Shown here: positions 22,295-30,409 of the stretch, in pieces
How positions within the stretch are numbered: position 1 is the stretch's first letter
How the letters are laid out: every line of letters starts with the position of its first letter
Origin: Eubacteriales bacterium
Lineage (GTDB): Bacteria; Bacillota; Clostridia; Lachnospirales; Lachnospiraceae
Length of the DNA stretch: 47,621 bases
Reading direction: 5' to 3'
Assembly (NCBI GenBank): GCA_030531555.1
Contig: JAUNNI010000016.1
Span: 1 to 47,621 of the forward strand
Notes under the pieces: generated by a model
Databases searched by the model: none
Seen by the model: only the letters and a program-made list of their open reading frames with translations
What the model was told of the DNA's origin: nothing
Made by a program: the position numbers and the translations under genes

Positions 22295-23077
22295 TTATCC
22301 CTCAGAATAACGGGATAAAAACTGTCTGGTACGTTCTTCCTGTGGATTGTCGATCACCTGTTTTGCAGGACCCTGTTCCACAATATAACCACCATCCATG
22401 AAAATGATTTCATCCGCCACATCACGGGCAAATGCCATTTCATGGGTAACAATAATCATGGTTGTTTTCTGCTCTGCAAGGCCACGAATTACCTTAAGAA
22501 CCTCTCCCGTAAGTTCTGGATCAAGAGCAGAAGTTGGTTCGTCAAAGCATAAGATATCCGGTTTTAAGGCCAAAGCTCTGGCAATGGCAACTCGCTGCTG
22601 CTGTCCACCGGATAACTGGTGTGGGTAATGGCTTGCTCGATCCTTTAAGCCCATCATATCAAGCAATTCCATGCCATGATCATCGATTTGGTCTAAAATT
22701 TCTTTTTTATTAGCTTTAAATCCTACCTGCTCCTGGGCAAGAAGTTTTTCTGCTAAAGTAACATTTTCCAGGGCAGTATACTGTGGAAAAAGATTGAATT
22801 GCTGGAATACCATTCCAAAATGAAGTCTTCGGTCACGAAGCTCACGATCATTTAATTCTTTTTCACCTGCATTAAATACAGCTTCCCCCTTTACGATAAT
22901 ATTTCCCTGATTTGGTTTTTCCAGGAAATTTAAACATCGAAGTAAAGTAGTTTTACCGGAGCCAGAGGATCCGATGATTGCCAATGCATGTCCTTCTTCC
23001 AGTGAGAAGCTGACATCTTTAAGTACCTTGGTACGTCCAAAGTGTTTTTCAATATTATTAACTTCTAAGATTGCCAT
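22295..23077 (-). CDS. Amino-acid ABC transporter ATP-binding protein
   Basis: This 260-residue ATPase of the GlnQ/HisP group powers uptake of polar amino acids. Walker A is GSSGSGKTTL, the signature is LSGGQQQR, and Walker B is ILCFDEPTSALD. Two inserts, at about 65-80 and about 115-135, make it longer than the classic 240. It lies 11 bases after the permease gene and is the third gene of the transporter set. The ribosome site AGGAGGTG fits the ATG. Confidence 0.93.
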   Translation of the reverse strand: MAILEVNNIEKHFGRTKVLKDVSFSLEEGHALAIIGSSGSGKTTLLRCLNFLEKPNQGNIIVKGEAVFNAGEKELNDRELRDRRLHFGMVFQQFNLFPQYTALENVTLAEKLLAQEQVGFKANKKEILDQIDDHGMELLDMMGLKDRASHYPHQLSGGQQQRVAIARALALKPDILCFDEPTSALDPELTGEVLKVIRGLAEQKTTMIIVTHEMAFARDVADEIIFMDGGYIVEQGPAKQVIDNPQEERTRQFLSRYSEG

Positions 23078-23088
23078 ATTCCCACCTC

Positions 23089-23745
23089 CTATCTAAAATA
23101 ATCCAGTTTCTTTTCAATATAATTGAAAATCAAAGTTAAAATACCAACAAATGCGAGATAGAATACACCTGTATAGAACAATGGCCATGTGATACCTGCA
23201 GATTTCATGAAAGAGAAACCTGTGAAGGTAAGCTCATAAGCGGCGATAATACGTGCTAAAGATGTATCTTTTACCAAAGTAATAATCTCGTTGGACATTG
23301 GTGGAACAACACGTTTAATCATCTGAAGTAAAGTAACCTTGAAGAAGATTTGTGTTTTGGTCATACCTAATACAAGTCCGGCTTCTCTTTGTCCTACTGG
23401 AACACCTTCGATTCCACCACGGAAAATTACGGAGAAATAGCAGGCGTAGTTGATGGTAAATGCTACAACTGTCGCTGCGATACGACCCGCTTCATTTCCA
23501 CTCCAGATATTGTGGCCAAGCCAAAGACCAGGTCCATAGAAAATAATAATCAACTGAAGCATCAGAGGGGTTCCTCGAATGATCCATACGATGATCTGAA
23601 TAATCATTTTTAATAGTTTAAATTTGCTGGTGGAGCCTAAGGCAACGATCAGACCCAATGGCAACGCAAAAATCAATGTCAGAATAAAGATCTGAAATGT
23701 CGTCCATAAACCACCAAGTAACTGCAAGGTTACTGATACAAACAT
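23089..23745 (-). CDS. Amino-acid ABC transporter permease
   Basis: This 218-residue inner-membrane protein of the HisM/GlnP family has five hydrophobic segments and the EAA loop near residues 130-155 (REAGLVLGMTKTQIFF), which contacts the ATPase. I start at 23745 because AAAGGAGTAAATCAA lies directly upstream; the frame is open for 22 further codons but without a better ribosome site. The single permease gene implies a homodimer. It is separated from the binding-protein gene by a strong hairpin, so its expression may be lower. Confidence 0.92.
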   Translation of the reverse strand: MFVSVTLQLLGGLWTTFQIFILTLIFALPLGLIVALGSTSKFKLLKMIIQIIVWIIRGTPLMLQLIIIFYGPGLWLGHNIWSGNEAGRIAATVVAFTINYACYFSVIFRGGIEGVPVGQREAGLVLGMTKTQIFFKVTLLQMIKRVVPPMSNEIITLVKDTSLARIIAAYELTFTGFSFMKSAGITWPLFYTGVFYLAFVGILTLIFNYIEKKLDYFR

Positions 23746-23790
23746 TTGATTTACTCCTTTTCTCTCTTTATAGTGTATCAATTCAAAGGG

Positions 23791-23839
23791 AAAGGCTGTC
23801 GTTACCATCATCTATGATTACGGTATCACGCCAGCCTTT
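23791..23839 (-). promoter_or_regulatory. Intercistronic hairpin in the amino-acid transporter operon
   Basis: AAAGGCTG (23791-23798) and CAGCCTTT (23832-23839) form the outer stem, with inner pairs TACC/GGTA and ATCAT/ATGAT in the loop. No T run follows on the minus strand. Such a stem after a binding-protein gene usually protects the upstream mRNA or reduces downstream expression. Confidence 0.65.
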
Positions 23840-23883: not shown

Positions 23884-24696
23884 TTATTTCTGTGTTACAA
23901 CTACCTGAGCATTGTTGCAATATGGAACAGAACATTCCATAGCATTTGTTACTTCATTTGTCAATGTCATACCATTCCAAACAACGTCGATGTTTTTGGA
24001 ATCAAGTTCCATAGTCTTTGTATCCCAATCGATTTCAACGATCTGACAATCAACACCAAGTTCTTCTGCAACGATATTAGCCATATCAGCATCAAAGCCA
24101 ATCCAAGCACCGCTTTCATCTTTATAATCCATTGGAGCGAAGTCTGTAACACCAACTACTAAAACGCCTTTTTCTTTGATTGCTGCAACATCACTATCTT
24201 TAGCAGATGCTTCAAATGTGCTTTCTGGGATATCAACAAGAGATTCCTGAACACCGTATTTCTCAGCAACTTCCTGTAATGTTCCATCCTGAGATGTTGT
24301 ATATAAAACACTGTTGATAAAGGAAGCAAGGTCAGAACCTTTACGGCAACCTACACCGTATTCTTCTGTTGTAAGCTCATCTGTATGGATGAGATCTGGA
24401 TAGCTTGTACCTTCACCAATCATAGCGCCTGCCATAAGAAGGTCGATGATTGCTGCATCAGATGTGCCAGACTGAACTTCCATGAGAGCATCTGCCTGGG
24501 AAGCAACTTCATTGGTTTTGAAACCTTTTTCTGCTGCTACTTCTGCACCTGCGGAACCAGCTTCAACTGCATAAACCATATCTTCTTTTGAAGCTTCTGT
24601 TGTCTTTTCTGGTGTGTTGCCTCCGCCGCCACATCCGGCAAGAGCAAAGCTCATAACCATTACGCCACTTAATAATATTGCTAATCTTTTTTTCAT
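23884..24696 (-). CDS. Amino-acid ABC transporter substrate-binding lipoprotein, circularly permuted
   Basis: The 270-residue extracellular lipoprotein has a signal peptide and lipobox LAGC with Cys22. Its SBP-family-3 fold has its halves in reversed order. Residues about 40-150 (VEAGSAGAE, TSDAAIIDLLM, YGVGCRKGSDL, TLQEVAEKYGV) match the C-terminal half of a normal GlnH-type protein. Residues about 177-268 (VLVVGVTDFAPMDY, WIGFDADMANIVAEELG, DVVWNGMTLTNEV, PYCNNAQVVV) match the N-terminal half. In ordinary proteins the second block comes first. Overall length is normal, so nothing is missing apart from the short bridging loop. Arg in the usual T-x-x-R ligand site is replaced by Val (TNEV), as in some related clostridial proteins. 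I start at 24696 because GGAGG lies 10 bases upstream. The ligand is probably a polar amino acid. Confidence 0.88.
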   Translation of the reverse strand: MKKRLAILLSGVMVMSFALAGCGGGGNTPEKTTEASKEDMVYAVEAGSAGAEVAAEKGFKTNEVASQADALMEVQSGTSDAAIIDLLMAGAMIGEGTSYPDLIHTDELTTEEYGVGCRKGSDLASFINSVLYTTSQDGTLQEVAEKYGVQESLVDIPESTFEASAKDSDVAAIKEKGVLVVGVTDFAPMDYKDESGAWIGFDADMANIVAEELGVDCQIVEIDWDTKTMELDSKNIDVVWNGMTLTNEVTNAMECSVPYCNNAQVVVTQK

Positions 24697-24797: not shown

Positions 24798-24832
24798 AAA
24801 AAATAATCGGCAGAGATATTCTGCCGATTATT
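24798..24832 (-). terminator. Rho-independent terminator after the flavoenzyme gene
   Basis: Perfect 13-bp inverted repeat (24802-24814 with 24820-24832) with a 5-base loop, followed on the minus strand by TTTTTTAG. It lies 14 bases past the stop. Confidence 0.92.
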
Positions 24833-24845
24833 CCATAATATTTCT

Positions 24846-26735
24846 TTAAATCTGAACGATAATTTCTCTCGCTTCACGAAGAGCATCAATAGCTCTTCTT
24901 GCACGAACTGCATCACCGATTACATACTGTTCTTTTACGATTCCTTCTGCAAATGGCTGATAGGAAGAAGAACCGAGAGCAAGAACTACACTGTCAAAAC
25001 CACGAAGATCCATCTTGGCTGTTTTTACACCATCAACAAAGATTTCTTCTACCGGTTCGTTAACATATGTTTTTACATGGTTTTCTTCAAAGCTCTTTAA
25101 GAGATAAATGCGATGTTCGCCGATGATATCTCCTGCAATCTGATCCTTTGCTTCCACTACAGAAACATCAAATCCACGTTCTGCAAGATAATCTGCTGTT
25201 TCACAACCAACAAGACCAGCACCGATAACAAGAACTTTCTTGCCACACTGTTTTTTACCATCAAGGACATCGATGGCATCCACTGTGTTATCAATTCCTG
25301 TAATTCCAGGACGAAGTGGTTTTGCACCGGTAGCGATCACAAGAACATCTGGATTCATTTCTTTAATCATTTCTTCTGTCACTTCCACACCAGTGTGAAT
25401 ATTTACATTATTCTTTTCACATAAAACGATGTAGCTGCGAACTGCTGTTGTGATATCGCCTTTTCCAGGAGGTACTGCTGCAAGACGCATCTGTCCACCA
25501 AGAACAGCTTCTTTTTCGTAAAGATCCACTTTATGACCTTTTTTGGCAAGCTGATAAGCAGTGAATAAACCACCAACACCGGCACCAACAACCATAACAT
25601 TTTTAGGAGTTTCTGTGCGATCGGTAAGATGTGCTTCATAACCAACAAATGGATTTACAAGACATTCAATTGGCTGACCAACGAACATGTTTCCAACACA
25701 ACCCTGAAGGCATCCGATACAAGGGATGATTTCTTCAAAATGATTGCCTGCTGCTTTATTTGGGAAATGTGGATCTGCGATGGACTGACGACCCATGGCA
25801 ATCATATCTGCATATCCCTTTTTCACTACTAATTCTGGAAGGAATGGATCATTATAACGACCAACTGTAACAACCGGAATATCTACAACATCTTTGATCT
25901 TCTTTACATGATCTAAGTTGAAGCCCTGATGGATACAGGAAGGAGCCCACATATATTCATCTTTTAAATGAATACTTCTGGAAACGTCAATGGCATCGAT
26001 ACCTGCTTCTTCTAAATATGCCGCAATTGCCTGTGCATCTTCTACCGTAACGCCACCAAGTGTTTCATCACAGCTGTTGATACGAGCAAGAACTGCCATG
26101 TTGTGACCAACTTTGCTTCGAATATTATCAATGATCAGTTTTGGAAGACGCATACGGTTTGCAAAGCATCCGCCAAACTCATCAAGACGTTTGTTTGTCT
26201 GTGGAGAGATAAAGCTGGATACCAGATAACCATGTGCCATATGGATTTCTACTGCATCTACTCCTGCTTTTTTTGCACGAAATGCGGCGTCACCATAAAG
26301 CTCTACTAATTCATAAATCTGTTCATTGGTCATTTCCAGTGGAATGTCCTTATTGCAGGAAGCCTGTACTCTGGAAGCAGATTTTAATGGATGACCAGCC
26401 GCTTTTGCACTTCCTTCCGGACCTGCCTGCTGAAGCTGAACCATAACCTTTGCCCCATAGGTGTGGCAGGCATCTACTGTACGTTTTAATGCATCGATCT
26501 GACTGTCATCAAAAAGGCAGTGTTTCTTTGGACCACCCTTGGCAGTTGGGTCAATTACTGTCGCTTCAATTGTGATCAGGCCAAAACCACCTTTGGCTCT
26601 CTCACGATAATAAGCTAAGGAGCGGTCGCTGAGTTCACCTGTTGCAATCGCATAGTTGTTAGACATTGGTGGAACCATATAACGGTTATTTACTGTCATA
26701 GGTCCAATCTGTAATGGTTGATACATATACTTCAT
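24846..26735 (-). CDS. NADH:flavin oxidoreductase with Fe-S cluster (old yellow enzyme / 2-enoate reductase family)
   Basis: The 629-residue protein resembles 2,4-dienoyl-CoA reductase, BaiCD/BaiH and 2-enoate reductases, which reduce C=C bonds next to a carbonyl. An FMN barrel (about 1-370) carries the HMAHGYLVSSFISP and NKRLDEFGG active-site segments. A 4Fe-4S motif follows with Cys339, Cys342, Cys346 and Cys358, then FAD-binding (GAGVGG near 384) and NAD-binding (GAGLVG) Rossmann domains. The electron path NADH-FAD-FeS-FMN is conserved. It is a single gene with its own promoter and terminator, and no bile-acid or aromatic-acid genes lie nearby, so the substrate cannot be assigned. The AAGGAGA ribosome site supports the ATG at 26735. 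Confidence 0.92.
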   Translation of the reverse strand: MKYMYQPLQIGPMTVNNRYMVPPMSNNYAIATGELSDRSLAYYRERAKGGFGLITIEATVIDPTAKGGPKKHCLFDDSQIDALKRTVDACHTYGAKVMVQLQQAGPEGSAKAAGHPLKSASRVQASCNKDIPLEMTNEQIYELVELYGDAAFRAKKAGVDAVEIHMAHGYLVSSFISPQTNKRLDEFGGCFANRMRLPKLIIDNIRSKVGHNMAVLARINSCDETLGGVTVEDAQAIAAYLEEAGIDAIDVSRSIHLKDEYMWAPSCIHQGFNLDHVKKIKDVVDIPVVTVGRYNDPFLPELVVKKGYADMIAMGRQSIADPHFPNKAAGNHFEEIIPCIGCLQGCVGNMFVGQPIECLVNPFVGYEAHLTDRTETPKNVMVVGAGVGGLFTAYQLAKKGHKVDLYEKEAVLGGQMRLAAVPPGKGDITTAVRSYIVLCEKNNVNIHTGVEVTEEMIKEMNPDVLVIATGAKPLRPGITGIDNTVDAIDVLDGKKQCGKKVLVIGAGLVGCETADYLAERGFDVSVVEAKDQIAGDIIGEHRIYLLKSFEENHVKTYVNEPVEEIFVDGVKTAKMDLRGFDSVVLALGSSSYQPFAEGIVKEQYVIGDAVRARRAIDALREAREIIVQI

Positions 26736-26842: not shown

Positions 26843-28924
26843 TTACGATAAGAAAACGATATAAATCAAGGTTAGCATAAGACCTACACCAAAGAGCATA
26901 AGACCAAAGGAAAGACTTCTCTGAATGATTCGGAAGATTTCGTTTCTCTCCTGTTGTTTCAATGCTTCCTCATGAACATAATCCCATTGTGTAGGATTCT
27001 TTCGATGGATGGTTCTGTTTGCAATAAACTGAATGGCATTGCGGATATTTCCCACAATGGAAGAAAATACCGAGCCTTCCATTCTTTCTCTTGGTAAAGG
27101 ACTATCTGCAAGAAGAGTTTTTCGTAAAAGTACAACCACCATATCTGGCAAGGTGTCAAAAATACGGAAAATCACACCAAAAACTGTTGGTAAAATCGTA
27201 AGTAAAAGGGGACGATATAATAATTCTTCCATATCATACCATCTTGGCCAACGATTCACATAAATCACGTGACCATCCTCTTCCTTTCTCAGCACTTTTC
27301 GAATAAAAAATACATAAATCAAAAGGCCGATCAATATGGAAATCACAGAACCTTTCAGATTACCTATACTATAATAAGCTACCACTTCTCCTTCTTCAAA
27401 GAGACCCATAAATCGAGAGCCGAGCTCTGCTGCTTTATCCATGATATTGTGGGGAACCACTCCCCAGATAAAAAGAACGATGGCACTGCCGAGAAGGGCA
27501 AACGTACTTTTTCCGTTCATATATCGCTTCATGGAATCATAATGTGCCTGTAACTTCTTATCTTCATTTTCTTCGACAAAGATTGCCATATATAATTTGG
27601 TCATGTAGGCAAAGGTCATTCCACCACTGATTAAGAAGATCCATTCCATGGCTTTCATGGCAATTCCTCCGCCGAATTCCACGATACTTTCATGGAGAAG
27701 GGTTTTACTGACATAACCTCCCAACATAGGAATTCCCGCAATGGTGATAGCCCCTACTAAATAAATGACTTTTAACAGATTTTTCTTCTTTCCAAAACCT
27801 CGAATTTCATTGAGGTCCAGAGAATGGGCATTCATGAATACCACACCAGCTACCATGAAAAGAACCAGCTTGATCAAAGAATGGTTTACCATGTGAAGTA
27901 AGGTACCATGAACAGCCAGGGCATTTTCTTCTCCCAGAAGAGCCTGCATTCCAACCCCCACCAAAATAAAACCAATCTGGGACATGGAGGAACATGCTAA
28001 GGTGCGTTTTAAATCGATGGAGAAGACAGCAAGAAGCGCTCCACCAAACATGGTAAGCTCTCCGATGATGAGAATCATATATCCCCAGGTCTGATTATGG
28101 ATAAACAAATTACTTGTAATAATCAGGATTCCATAAATACCGGTTTTCGTTAGGATACCGGAAAGCAGTGCAGAGGCTGGAGCCGGTGCAACCGGATGGG
28201 CCTTTGGCAGCCAGATATGTAATGGAAAAGCACCTGCTTTTGCCCCAAAACCAAAAAGCATACATACGCCTGCTGCAAAAAGAACTTCCGGATGGGAGCA
28301 ATTTGCCGCTGCCGGTAATAATTCAGAAATCATCAAAGTTCCCAGTTCATGATAAACAAGAAAAAGTCCCATCAGCATCACAAGACCACCAATCACTGCC
28401 ACAGCAAGATAGGTCTTGGCGGCTTTTAAAGAAGGAACATTTTCTTCCTGAGCTACCCAAACATAAGAAGTAAAGGACATGATTTCAAAGAAGACAAATG
28501 TAGTATATAAGCTTGCGCTCAAGAAAACTCCCATGGTAGCACCAAGGGTCCACAGCATAAAGAAATAATAACGATTTCGATTGCCATGGTGTGTAAAATA
28601 TTCCTGAGATAAGATGATGGTCATCATCCACATAAGAGCAGCAATACTTCCATAGATTCCACGAAAGCCGTCTAAAGTAAAGTCCAGACCCATCCCACAG
28701 ATTCCAGGAATTCCTGCGGAAATATAACTCAATGCCTCGCCCTGAAGAGGAATTCCTGTCATACTCATATAGGCAAATCCTGCCATAAGAAGGAATTCGA
28801 TCACACCAGATAGCATTGCAAAGTAATCTCGAATCGTCTCATTTTTTCGTCCGATTCCATAACAGATCAAACCGCTAATAAAAGGAAAGAACACAATGAG
28901 ATCAAAAATATAAGAATTATTCAT
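26843..28924 (-). CDS. NuoL/MrpA-like antiporter subunit, fourth large subunit of the Mrp/Mbh cluster
   Basis: This 693-residue protein of the proton-conducting ND5 family has about 14-16 membrane helices. The key channel residues are present: Glu in FVFFEIMSF, Lys in GFGAKAGAFPLHIWLPKAHP, Lys in ILTKTGIYG, and a Lys near the helix-12 position in GYVSKTLLH. The C-terminal third (after about 480) is an extension resembling that of formate hydrogenlyase membrane subunits HycC/HyfB rather than that of MrpA. It is the last gene of the cluster, 12 bases after the preceding subunit gene. It would transport H+ or Na+ across the cytoplasmic membrane within the complex. Confidence 0.88.
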   Translation of the reverse strand: MNNSYIFDLIVFFPFISGLICYGIGRKNETIRDYFAMLSGVIEFLLMAGFAYMSMTGIPLQGEALSYISAGIPGICGMGLDFTLDGFRGIYGSIAALMWMMTIILSQEYFTHHGNRNRYYFFMLWTLGATMGVFLSASLYTTFVFFEIMSFTSYVWVAQEENVPSLKAAKTYLAVAVIGGLVMLMGLFLVYHELGTLMISELLPAAANCSHPEVLFAAGVCMLFGFGAKAGAFPLHIWLPKAHPVAPAPASALLSGILTKTGIYGILIITSNLFIHNQTWGYMILIIGELTMFGGALLAVFSIDLKRTLACSSMSQIGFILVGVGMQALLGEENALAVHGTLLHMVNHSLIKLVLFMVAGVVFMNAHSLDLNEIRGFGKKKNLLKVIYLVGAITIAGIPMLGGYVSKTLLHESIVEFGGGIAMKAMEWIFLISGGMTFAYMTKLYMAIFVEENEDKKLQAHYDSMKRYMNGKSTFALLGSAIVLFIWGVVPHNIMDKAAELGSRFMGLFEEGEVVAYYSIGNLKGSVISILIGLLIYVFFIRKVLRKEEDGHVIYVNRWPRWYDMEELLYRPLLLTILPTVFGVIFRIFDTLPDMVVVLLRKTLLADSPLPRERMEGSVFSSIVGNIRNAIQFIANRTIHRKNPTQWDYVHEEALKQQERNEIFRIIQRSLSFGLMLFGVGLMLTLIYIVFLS

Positions 28925-28936
28925 TTTCTTCCCCCT

Positions 28937-30409
28937 TTATAAAACAGATACTACGTTATGTAAAATGTTATAGAGTAGCTGTGGATGTAAGCCCAAAATC
29001 ACCATGCCGATGACGAAGCAGGCAAGGGGAAGGATCATCATCCAGTTTGGATCTTCCACCGTTTCAATCTTAGAATAATCAAACGCTTTTCCCGGGAAGA
29101 AGGCGCGAATAGAAACGGTTAACATATAAATAGCTGTCAATAAAGCAGAAACCAAGAGAGCACCCACGCCAAGATAAGAAAGAGCACTTCCGTTTTCCGT
29201 TGCTGCTTTTACGATATACCATTTGCTGATGAAGCCACATAAACCAGGAACACCCATAAGCCCAAGCCCGGCAAAGGTGAATGCCAGGAATACTTTTGGC
29301 ATTTTTCTTCCAAAGCCATCCAGTTCATGGATATAATGACAACCTGTTTTATACATGATGGCACCTGCACAGAAGAAACCACAGATCTTCATGAAGGCAT
29401 GGGCAACCATATGTCCAAGAGCACCTTCCAAGCCAGCCGCAGACATCTGAGTCACAGCAAATAAAATATAAGACAGGTTACTGACCGTTGACCAGGCCAA
29501 TCTCCTCTTGATGTGTGTTTCCTTTAACGCCCTGGAAGAAGCATATACAATCGTGATAATGGTCAGAGTCATGACAAAACTCTGAGCCCAGCTCCCCTTC
29601 AAAAGATCGATTCCAAAGCTGTAATAGGTAATTCTCATCACAGCAAAAACACCTGTTTTAACAACCGCTACCGCATGCAAAAGTGCGGTGACCGGTGTTG
29701 GAGCCACACCTGCTTTTGGAAGCCAGGAAGAAAATGGGAAGAGCGCTGCTTTTACACTAAATCCACAGAAACACATGACATATATTAATAAGAAGAAATT
29801 CTCACGACCTGCAACCTTGGCAGGGTCCAAAACTCCACCTGGAACGAAAGAAGAGGTGGTTCCATAAATCAGAATGAAGATCATACCAATGAAGGCAAAG
29901 GCAGCACCACCGACCATATAATAGAAATAGGTTCGACTGGCATGGATTGCCTCTCTGGTAAGAGTATGCATGATAAGAGGCAGCGTAATTAAGCTGAGCA
30001 TCTCAAAAAATACATAAAGTGTCAGAATATTTTCTGCTTCACAAACACCAAGAGTTACACCATAAGTCATCACATAAAACATAAAGAAATACTTTTCATG
30101 TCCTTCATGCTTCATATATTCAAAAGAGAATAAAACGGCAAGAGGCCATAATATGGCAATCATACCGGCAAAGATGCTTCCAAGTCCATCTAAGGTAAGG
30201 GTCACACTAAGATTTCCCTGAAAACGGAATAAAGTGAAGACTCCATCTGGCGTATTCATTTCCATATAAAGTACAAGTAAGGAGGTCAGAATCACCACAG
30301 TCTCAATGTAAATCATCATCTGTGTTCTATTTTTAAATGGAAGAAGCACGATTAGCACACCCATAAGAATTGGGAACAAAACCGTGATCGCATATATATA
30401 ATTTCCCAT
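28937..30409 (-). CDS. MrpD/NuoN-like antiporter subunit, third large subunit
   Basis: This 490-residue member of the MrpD/NuoN/NuoM family has about 14 helices. The conserved Glu lies in LYVFFEMLS, the Lys residues in SVKAALFPFSSWLPKAG and VAVVKTGVFAV, and a late Lys in GFISKWYIVKA. All the charged residues of the half-channels are kept, so it should be competent in ion transport. It lies 15 bases after the second large subunit gene and 12 before the fourth. The ribosome site GAAAGGAGAGG fits the ATG. Confidence 0.88.
   Translation of the reverse strand: MGNYIYAITVLFPILMGVLIVLLPFKNRTQMMIYIETVVILTSLLVLYMEMNTPDGVFTLFRFQGNLSVTLTLDGLGSIFAGMIAILWPLAVLFSFEYMKHEGHEKYFFMFYVMTYGVTLGVCEAENILTLYVFFEMLSLITLPLIMHTLTREAIHASRTYFYYMVGGAAFAFIGMIFILIYGTTSSFVPGGVLDPAKVAGRENFFLLIYVMCFCGFSVKAALFPFSSWLPKAGVAPTPVTALLHAVAVVKTGVFAVMRITYYSFGIDLLKGSWAQSFVMTLTIITIVYASSRALKETHIKRRLAWSTVSNLSYILFAVTQMSAAGLEGALGHMVAHAFMKICGFFCAGAIMYKTGCHYIHELDGFGRKMPKVFLAFTFAGLGLMGVPGLCGFISKWYIVKAATENGSALSYLGVGALLVSALLTAIYMLTVSIRAFFPGKAFDYSKIETVEDPNWMMILPLACFVIGMVILGLHPQLLYNILHNVVSVL

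Follow-up and report, generated by a model that had tools for sequence, protein, structure and literature searches.

We confirmed that a gene in the window, by which we mean the whole 47,621-nucleotide stretch of DNA that was analyzed, encodes a lipoprotein of the SBP_bac_3 type that is, by sequence, circularly permuted. The best explanation of our results, and one that we consider very probable, is that this protein is the lipid-anchored binding protein of an ABC importer that looks intact, with a permease and an ATPase as its other components, and has a two-lobe family-3 sequence that is circularly permuted. The gene most likely encodes the binding protein of a working importer. A preliminary description of this DNA had given the correct coordinates, and the gene is on the minus strand; the interpretation in that description is partly supported, as described below.

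Positions in the window of the binding-protein gene, its parts, and the genes of its operon
Feature	Positions	Strand	Remarks
Circularly permuted SBP_bac_3 lipoprotein gene	23884..24696	minus	270 aa + stop
Start codon; last sense codon; stop codon	24696; 23887; 23884-23886	minus	
Signal peptide and lipobox LAGC, residues 1-22	24631..24696	minus	
Segment Ma, residues 41-97 (lobe 2, first part; mid-protein in canonical order)	24406..24576	minus	boundaries rounded by hand
Segment Mb, residues 98-150 (last part of lobe 2, hinge 2, and lobe-1 tail)	24247..24405	minus	boundaries rounded by hand
Hinge 2 equivalent, residues 109-113 (GlnBP 181-185)	24358..24372	minus	GlnBP alignment, transferred by hand
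Linker, residues 151-168 (canonical C-tail and canonical post-lipobox remnant)	24193..24246	minus	
Segment N1, residues 169-270 (lobe-1 head, hinge 1, and the first strand of lobe 2; start of the mature canonical protein)	23887..24192	minus	
Hinge 1 equivalent, residues 259-263 (GlnBP 85-89)	23908..23922	minus	
C-terminal small-lobe strand QVVVTQK, residues 264-270 (GlnBP 90-96)	23887..23907	minus	
Polar amino acid-type ABC permease (BPD_transp_1)	23089..23811	minus	alternative start codon 23748
ABC ATPase	22295..23077	minus	best NCBIfam matches TcyN and GlnQ, both below cut-off

The halves of the window protein matched solved family-3 binding proteins in swapped order. Against 6svf_A, residues 172-270 aligned with chain residues 5-104 (domain i-Evalue 7.9e-17) and residues 41-147 aligned with chain residues 120-226 (domain i-Evalue 6.5e-9), in agreement with the reversed lobe order proposed previously. 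Among the solved chains, the best stretch spanned the permuted order in the tandem protein 6h30 alone, and the order of the minor stretches was seen for few alignments. The Pfam profile SBP_bac_3 (PF00497) gave a score of 91 bits, above its curated cut-off of 26.4, with a match to residues 180-270 only (profile positions 2-92 of 132) and thus not in collinear order over the whole profile. The protein is homologous to SBP_bac_3 and is a permuted variant of it: both halves are homologous to one unpermuted orthologue, their order is rotated, and the termini are joined, as in a natural circular permutant. Such a protein is covered only in part by the Pfam profile, and its order is therefore easy to miss in annotation.

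Both hinge segments are present in the permuted chain, which runs through lobe 2, hinge 2, the lobe-1 tail, the linker, the lobe-1 head, hinge 1, and one lobe-2 strand. Hinge and small-lobe residues were placed on the window protein by hand, from an alignment with GlnBP and the domain limits in the accessible text of PMC13229503 (large domain 5-84 and 186-224, small domain 90-180). That text prints the second hinge of GlnBP as '181, and 189', and residues 181-185 are the gap between its domains. With this placement, the path goes from lobe 2 to lobe 1 and back to lobe 2 with two interlobe crossings, contrary to the earlier statement that only one covalent crossing remains. Altered domain closure had been suggested on account of the lost crossing, a reason that does not hold, as the cut point is inside the small lobe, away from the hinges, and both hinge segments are in one chain. 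The permuted chain would be expected to fold as a single two-lobed family-3 domain.

The linker is a mosaic of the two ends of a canonical protein. In 18 rows of permuted proteins from clade A, to which the window protein belongs, the linker opens on the tail that is C-terminal in canonical proteins (in most rows ALVEQ or SLVEQ; the window protein has SLVDI), and its last residues before 'DVAYIK.KG' are DS or DG in most rows. In the canonical orthologues, DS or DG follows the lipobox region and is again ahead of 'DVAYIK.KG'. Such a combination of canonical tail and canonical head fits an in-frame head-to-tail fusion, and it bears out the earlier suggestion that the linker resembles the post-lipobox stretch, as from a tandem duplicate. 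The canonical bridge '.DKAD.Y.D..S..DL' is absent from the clade-A permuted proteins, and for this clade the bridging loop was correctly described as the only piece lost; a second permuted clade (clade B) retains the 'SVDDL' part of the bridge.

The permuted gene is followed by genes for a permease and then an ATPase on the same strand, the components found in polar amino acid-type ABC importers. This arrangement was conserved: among 80 permuted loci kept from a scan of named genomes, a permease homologue was directly downstream in 79, and the ATPase was next after the permease in 75 of those 79; the exception, L110, had no recognized permease downstream. Upstream of the binding-protein gene and on the same strand, at window 24846-26735 and 26843-30409, are a gene resembling NADH:flavin oxidoreductase and genes for two large membrane proteins, the latter two resembling, by eye, subunits of NADH dehydrogenase or hydrogenase. 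Between the upstream gene and the binding-protein gene, we saw by eye a 13-bp inverted repeat (window 24802-24832) that was not listed by the terminator scan.

Close relatives of the window protein exist in both orders. Clade A contains 84 distinct permuted proteins, including that of the window, and the other 83 are 65-80% identical to it. Eight of 299 genomes of the same family, its own included, have a near full-length permuted clade-A protein at 66% identity or more, and another 41 have a close canonical-order orthologue, defined by a limit that we set (a lobe-1 piece at least 55% identical). The canonical order was checked in all 22 orthologue loci that were fetched and was read from the positions of two split matches in the other 19. 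With eight first-look candidates scored per genome, none of the 299 genomes had both orders. The canonical-order orthologues are 59-69% identical to the window protein and lie ahead of the same permease type in related genomes; the permeases beside them are 59-66% identical to the window permease. In the scan of named genomes, the best 80 of at least 561 relatives (at least 598 stretches) were all permuted, a proportion to be read with the collinear query in mind, as it favors permuted matches. These loci are mostly from Lachnospiraceae, with some from Oscillospiraceae and a few identified as strains by title.

The dN/dS ratio was low, 0.05-0.10, for five of the six pairs compared, although dS already reached 2.0 and 2.4 in the two of these five that include the window gene; the sixth pair was saturated at synonymous sites and gave no value. 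A simple pattern found a lipobox-like motif in 77 of the 84 clade-A permuted proteins, and one more has the variant LNGC. The start of another is outside its contig, and five have a signal peptide without the cysteine, indicating that the N-terminal anchor is not universal. These five (L093, L097, L104, L108, and L121) may be secreted rather than lipid-anchored, and all of them come from the 28 named loci (of 80) that alignment A3 does not include.

The putative ligand site has changed, probably before the permutation. The arginine of the TxTxxR motif binds the carboxylate of the ligand. At the corresponding position 249, the window protein has valine, and the clade-A permuted proteins have valine (75/84) or threonine (9/84), never arginine. 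Valine is also found in all 22 canonical clade-A rows, and arginine is found in eight of ten more distant relatives. The presence of valine in the canonical rows points to a change in ligand recognition that is probably older than the permutation, and the loss of the arginine from the permuted members examined makes a standard alpha-amino acid, bound in the usual manner, an improbable ligand. Asp85, which we take to be the ligand of the amino group, is present in 83 of the 84 permuted proteins (one was unmatched by the pattern). Cys117 is present in 81 of the 84 (three unmatched by the pattern) and in 8 of the 22 canonical rows.

Permuted binding domains are found well beyond clade A, and in more than one rotation. 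We ran profiles of the segments N1 (lobe-1 head), Ma, and Mb, seeded with two proteins (that of the window and one from clade B) and then iterated, over all fetched open reading frames of at least 180 aa, a limit below which separate half-genes would fall. Distinct proteins numbered 152 in the window order (Ma-Mb-N1), 66 in the canonical order (N1-Ma-Mb), and 19 in a second rotation (Mb-N1-Ma), counts that mirror what was fetched and are not frequencies. There were also multi-domain chains (three double permuted, one five-fold permuted, one triple canonical, and one double canonical) and three partial detections. Of the 152 window-order proteins, 84 are in clade A and 68 are outside, and 12 are in open frames of more than 450 aa, as in fusions of binding protein and permease. 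The genome of the window itself has five SBP_bac_3 matches, and we observed there an apparent second binding domain in permuted order, fused to a permease (G000:C87, locus L256:1185-2741, minus strand; an open frame of 519 aa), in which Ma and then N1 were detected and the Mb signal was too weak.

Clade B is only distantly related to the window protein (21-30% identity) and has canonical relatives of its own that are 56-65% identical to a clade-B member. By a hand count of the matches listed, at least 43 of 200 family genomes have a match to the clade-B profile spanning at least 210 of its 266 positions, a count that omits the canonical tandem of G195. Matches to a combined profile (E <= 1e-45) were present in 28 of the 295 genomes sampled from the order, 46 of the 391 from the class, and 8 of the 398 from the phylum; these samples overlap, and some of the matches are short of full length.

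Trees and segment orders indicate that clades A and B reached the same order independently and that, with the second rotation, there were at least three permutation events. In a 105-row tree built after the alignments had been reordered, the 18 rows selected from the permuted proteins of clade A formed one clade (SH-aLRT 98) inside the canonical ones. When the two halves of clade-A proteins were analyzed separately, after removal of the distant rows L200 and L205, lobe 2 supported one permuted clade (98); the free lobe-1 tree lacked this clade and needed three changes, and the tree constrained to have it scored better (p-AU 0.88). In quick trees of 43 hand-chosen rows, forcing the permuted proteins of clades A and B together cost 281 log-likelihood units (p-AU 4e-67). 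In the same set of rows, clade B permuted proteins formed one clade without firm support (63), and grouping L164 with the rest of the second rotation was compatible with the data (p-AU 0.34). The trees of 105 and 41 rows had two changes for clade B, and placing clade B, a divergent fused set, and the second rotation on a shared branch was likewise compatible (p-AU 0.43, 41 rows). The second rotation has a different order and therefore represents a separate event. It begins near GlnBP residue 173, again in the small lobe, and with both cut sites there, the termini, including the N-terminal anchor where present, shift from the large to the small lobe. One locus (L060:2448-6374) has adjoining operons, one with a second-rotation and the other with a first-rotation permuted binding protein.

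Relatives with tandem binding domains, together with the mosaic linker, fit an origin by duplication, fusion, and trimming. A canonical gene would have been duplicated in tandem and fused; the lobe-1 head would then have been lost from the first copy, with its signal peptide kept, and lobe 2 and the tail from the second. Three very similar canonical binding domains are in tandem with a permease in one open frame of 973 residues (L160:913-3831), and L251 has two canonical domains in one chain. Permuted domains are also found in tandem. Two of them are joined to a permease and an ATPase in each of the open frames L161 (1149 aa) and L254 (1071 aa) and to a permease in L255, and five are followed by a permease in the 1527-residue open frame of L253:74-4654 (G557:C150), with an ATPase gene just upstream on the same strand. 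The search for permuted and tandem relatives that the preliminary description had recommended thus yielded both, the tandem chains in clades other than A.

The permuted order might instead have arisen by fission and fusion, or by another local rearrangement of one gene. We consider this unlikely, even though fission and fusion is an established model for other proteins (according to part of PMC3320104) and none of the fetched loci showed a tandem intermediate of clade A: the linker retains both the canonical C-terminal tail and the canonical residues ahead of the domain, as a head-to-tail fusion predicts, and tandem binding domains in one chain do exist in relatives. Much less probable is a single ancient permutation behind all of the permuted proteins, with the canonical-order orthologues as reversions. 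The identical rotation and nearly identical cut region of clades A and B would fit such a history, but the nesting of permuted clade A inside canonical proteins argues against it, the second rotation requires an event of its own in any case, and one origin for all permuted proteins was rejected by the constrained tree of clades A and B described above.

The linker is short, about 18 residues, and the permuted chain could function by domain swapping in a dimer, or together with halves from other binding proteins, instead of as a monomer. This seems quite improbable to us, as the canonical N- and C-termini are both in the large lobe (GlnBP 5-84 and 186-224, from the available portion of PMC13229503), where a short linker could plausibly close the gap, and as the permuted gene occupies the place of the binding-protein gene in its operon. 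The window is a single contig of 47.6 kb in a draft genome of 165 contigs, and an artefact of assembly, which had been named as a possible refutation, or a decaying gene might be suspected; the chance of either is negligible in our judgment. The same permuted order in 80 of 80 kept named loci, including some with titles of strains and not of MAGs (Roseburia porci L092, 0.1xD8-71 L083, and 1xD42-87 L087), led us to reject an assembly artefact, and the low dN/dS speaks against decay. As a monomeric binding protein, the predicted product would close on its ligand and deliver it to its permease, and its anchor would be on the small lobe, in place of the large lobe that bears it in canonical proteins.

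Natural permutation of binding proteins is already known, from the parts of PMC4990184 and PMC2395249 available to us, in which it was recognized between distant proteins; what stands out here is its recurrence and the closeness of the unpermuted orthologues. Related genomes have orthologues with and without the permutation, 59-69% identical and in the same type of operon, and the change was repeated, which amounts to a natural experiment. These natural pairs pose the questions of whether chain order affects ligand affinity, closure, or docking, and of whether it makes a difference which lobe bears the anchor. A broader reading is possible, and we offer it with more doubt than confidence: Clostridia-type bacteria may have repeatedly rotated family-3 proteins, with the anchor (and, in fusions, the permease) hanging from the small lobe, with two cut sites, both in lobe 2, with at least three events, with all three rotations of the three segments in use, and with up to five permuted domains per importer. 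If this is true, the site of tethering would be a trait for which the importer has been selected. The five clade-A relatives that lack the lipobox cysteine make this reading somewhat less likely.

Among known systems, the family-3 polar amino-acid proteins (GlnH, HisJ, ArtJ, 3hv1, and 6svf) are like the window protein in sequence and in having permease and ATPase partners, and differ from it in that its segments are rotated and the TxTxxR arginine is absent. In GlnPQ (6h30), which we take to be from Lactococcus, SBD1 and SBD2 are in tandem, and a profile stretch in permuted order crosses from the first into the second domain (27-262 on 97-326); unlike the window protein, each domain is canonical and nothing is trimmed. 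A literature search, which had most subscription journals outside it, gave us no paper in which family-3 binding proteins are described as naturally circularly permuted. The glucose-binding lipoprotein TpMglB-2 (Tp0684) is also a naturally circularly permuted ABC binding lipoprotein, for which 'Type Ic / Cluster Bc' was proposed and membrane tethering was raised by its authors as a possible reason for the topology (accessible sections of PMC4990184). The same sections describe a Type I fold that binds a sugar, a fourth crossing between the lobes, and poor conservation of the permuted part against the unpermuted relative. Type Ic / Cluster Bc combines the Type I fold with three hinge crossings and a fourth, whereas the window protein is, judging from its residues, of family 3 like GlnBP, with two hinge segments. 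Circular permutation was also reported, with CPSARST, to relate glycine betaine-binding proteins, molybdate-binding proteins, and CysB (PMC2395249, in the portion available). Those relations were detected from structure at less than 24% identity, in contrast to clade A, in which both orders are found at 59-69% identity and the change of order is one of several events.
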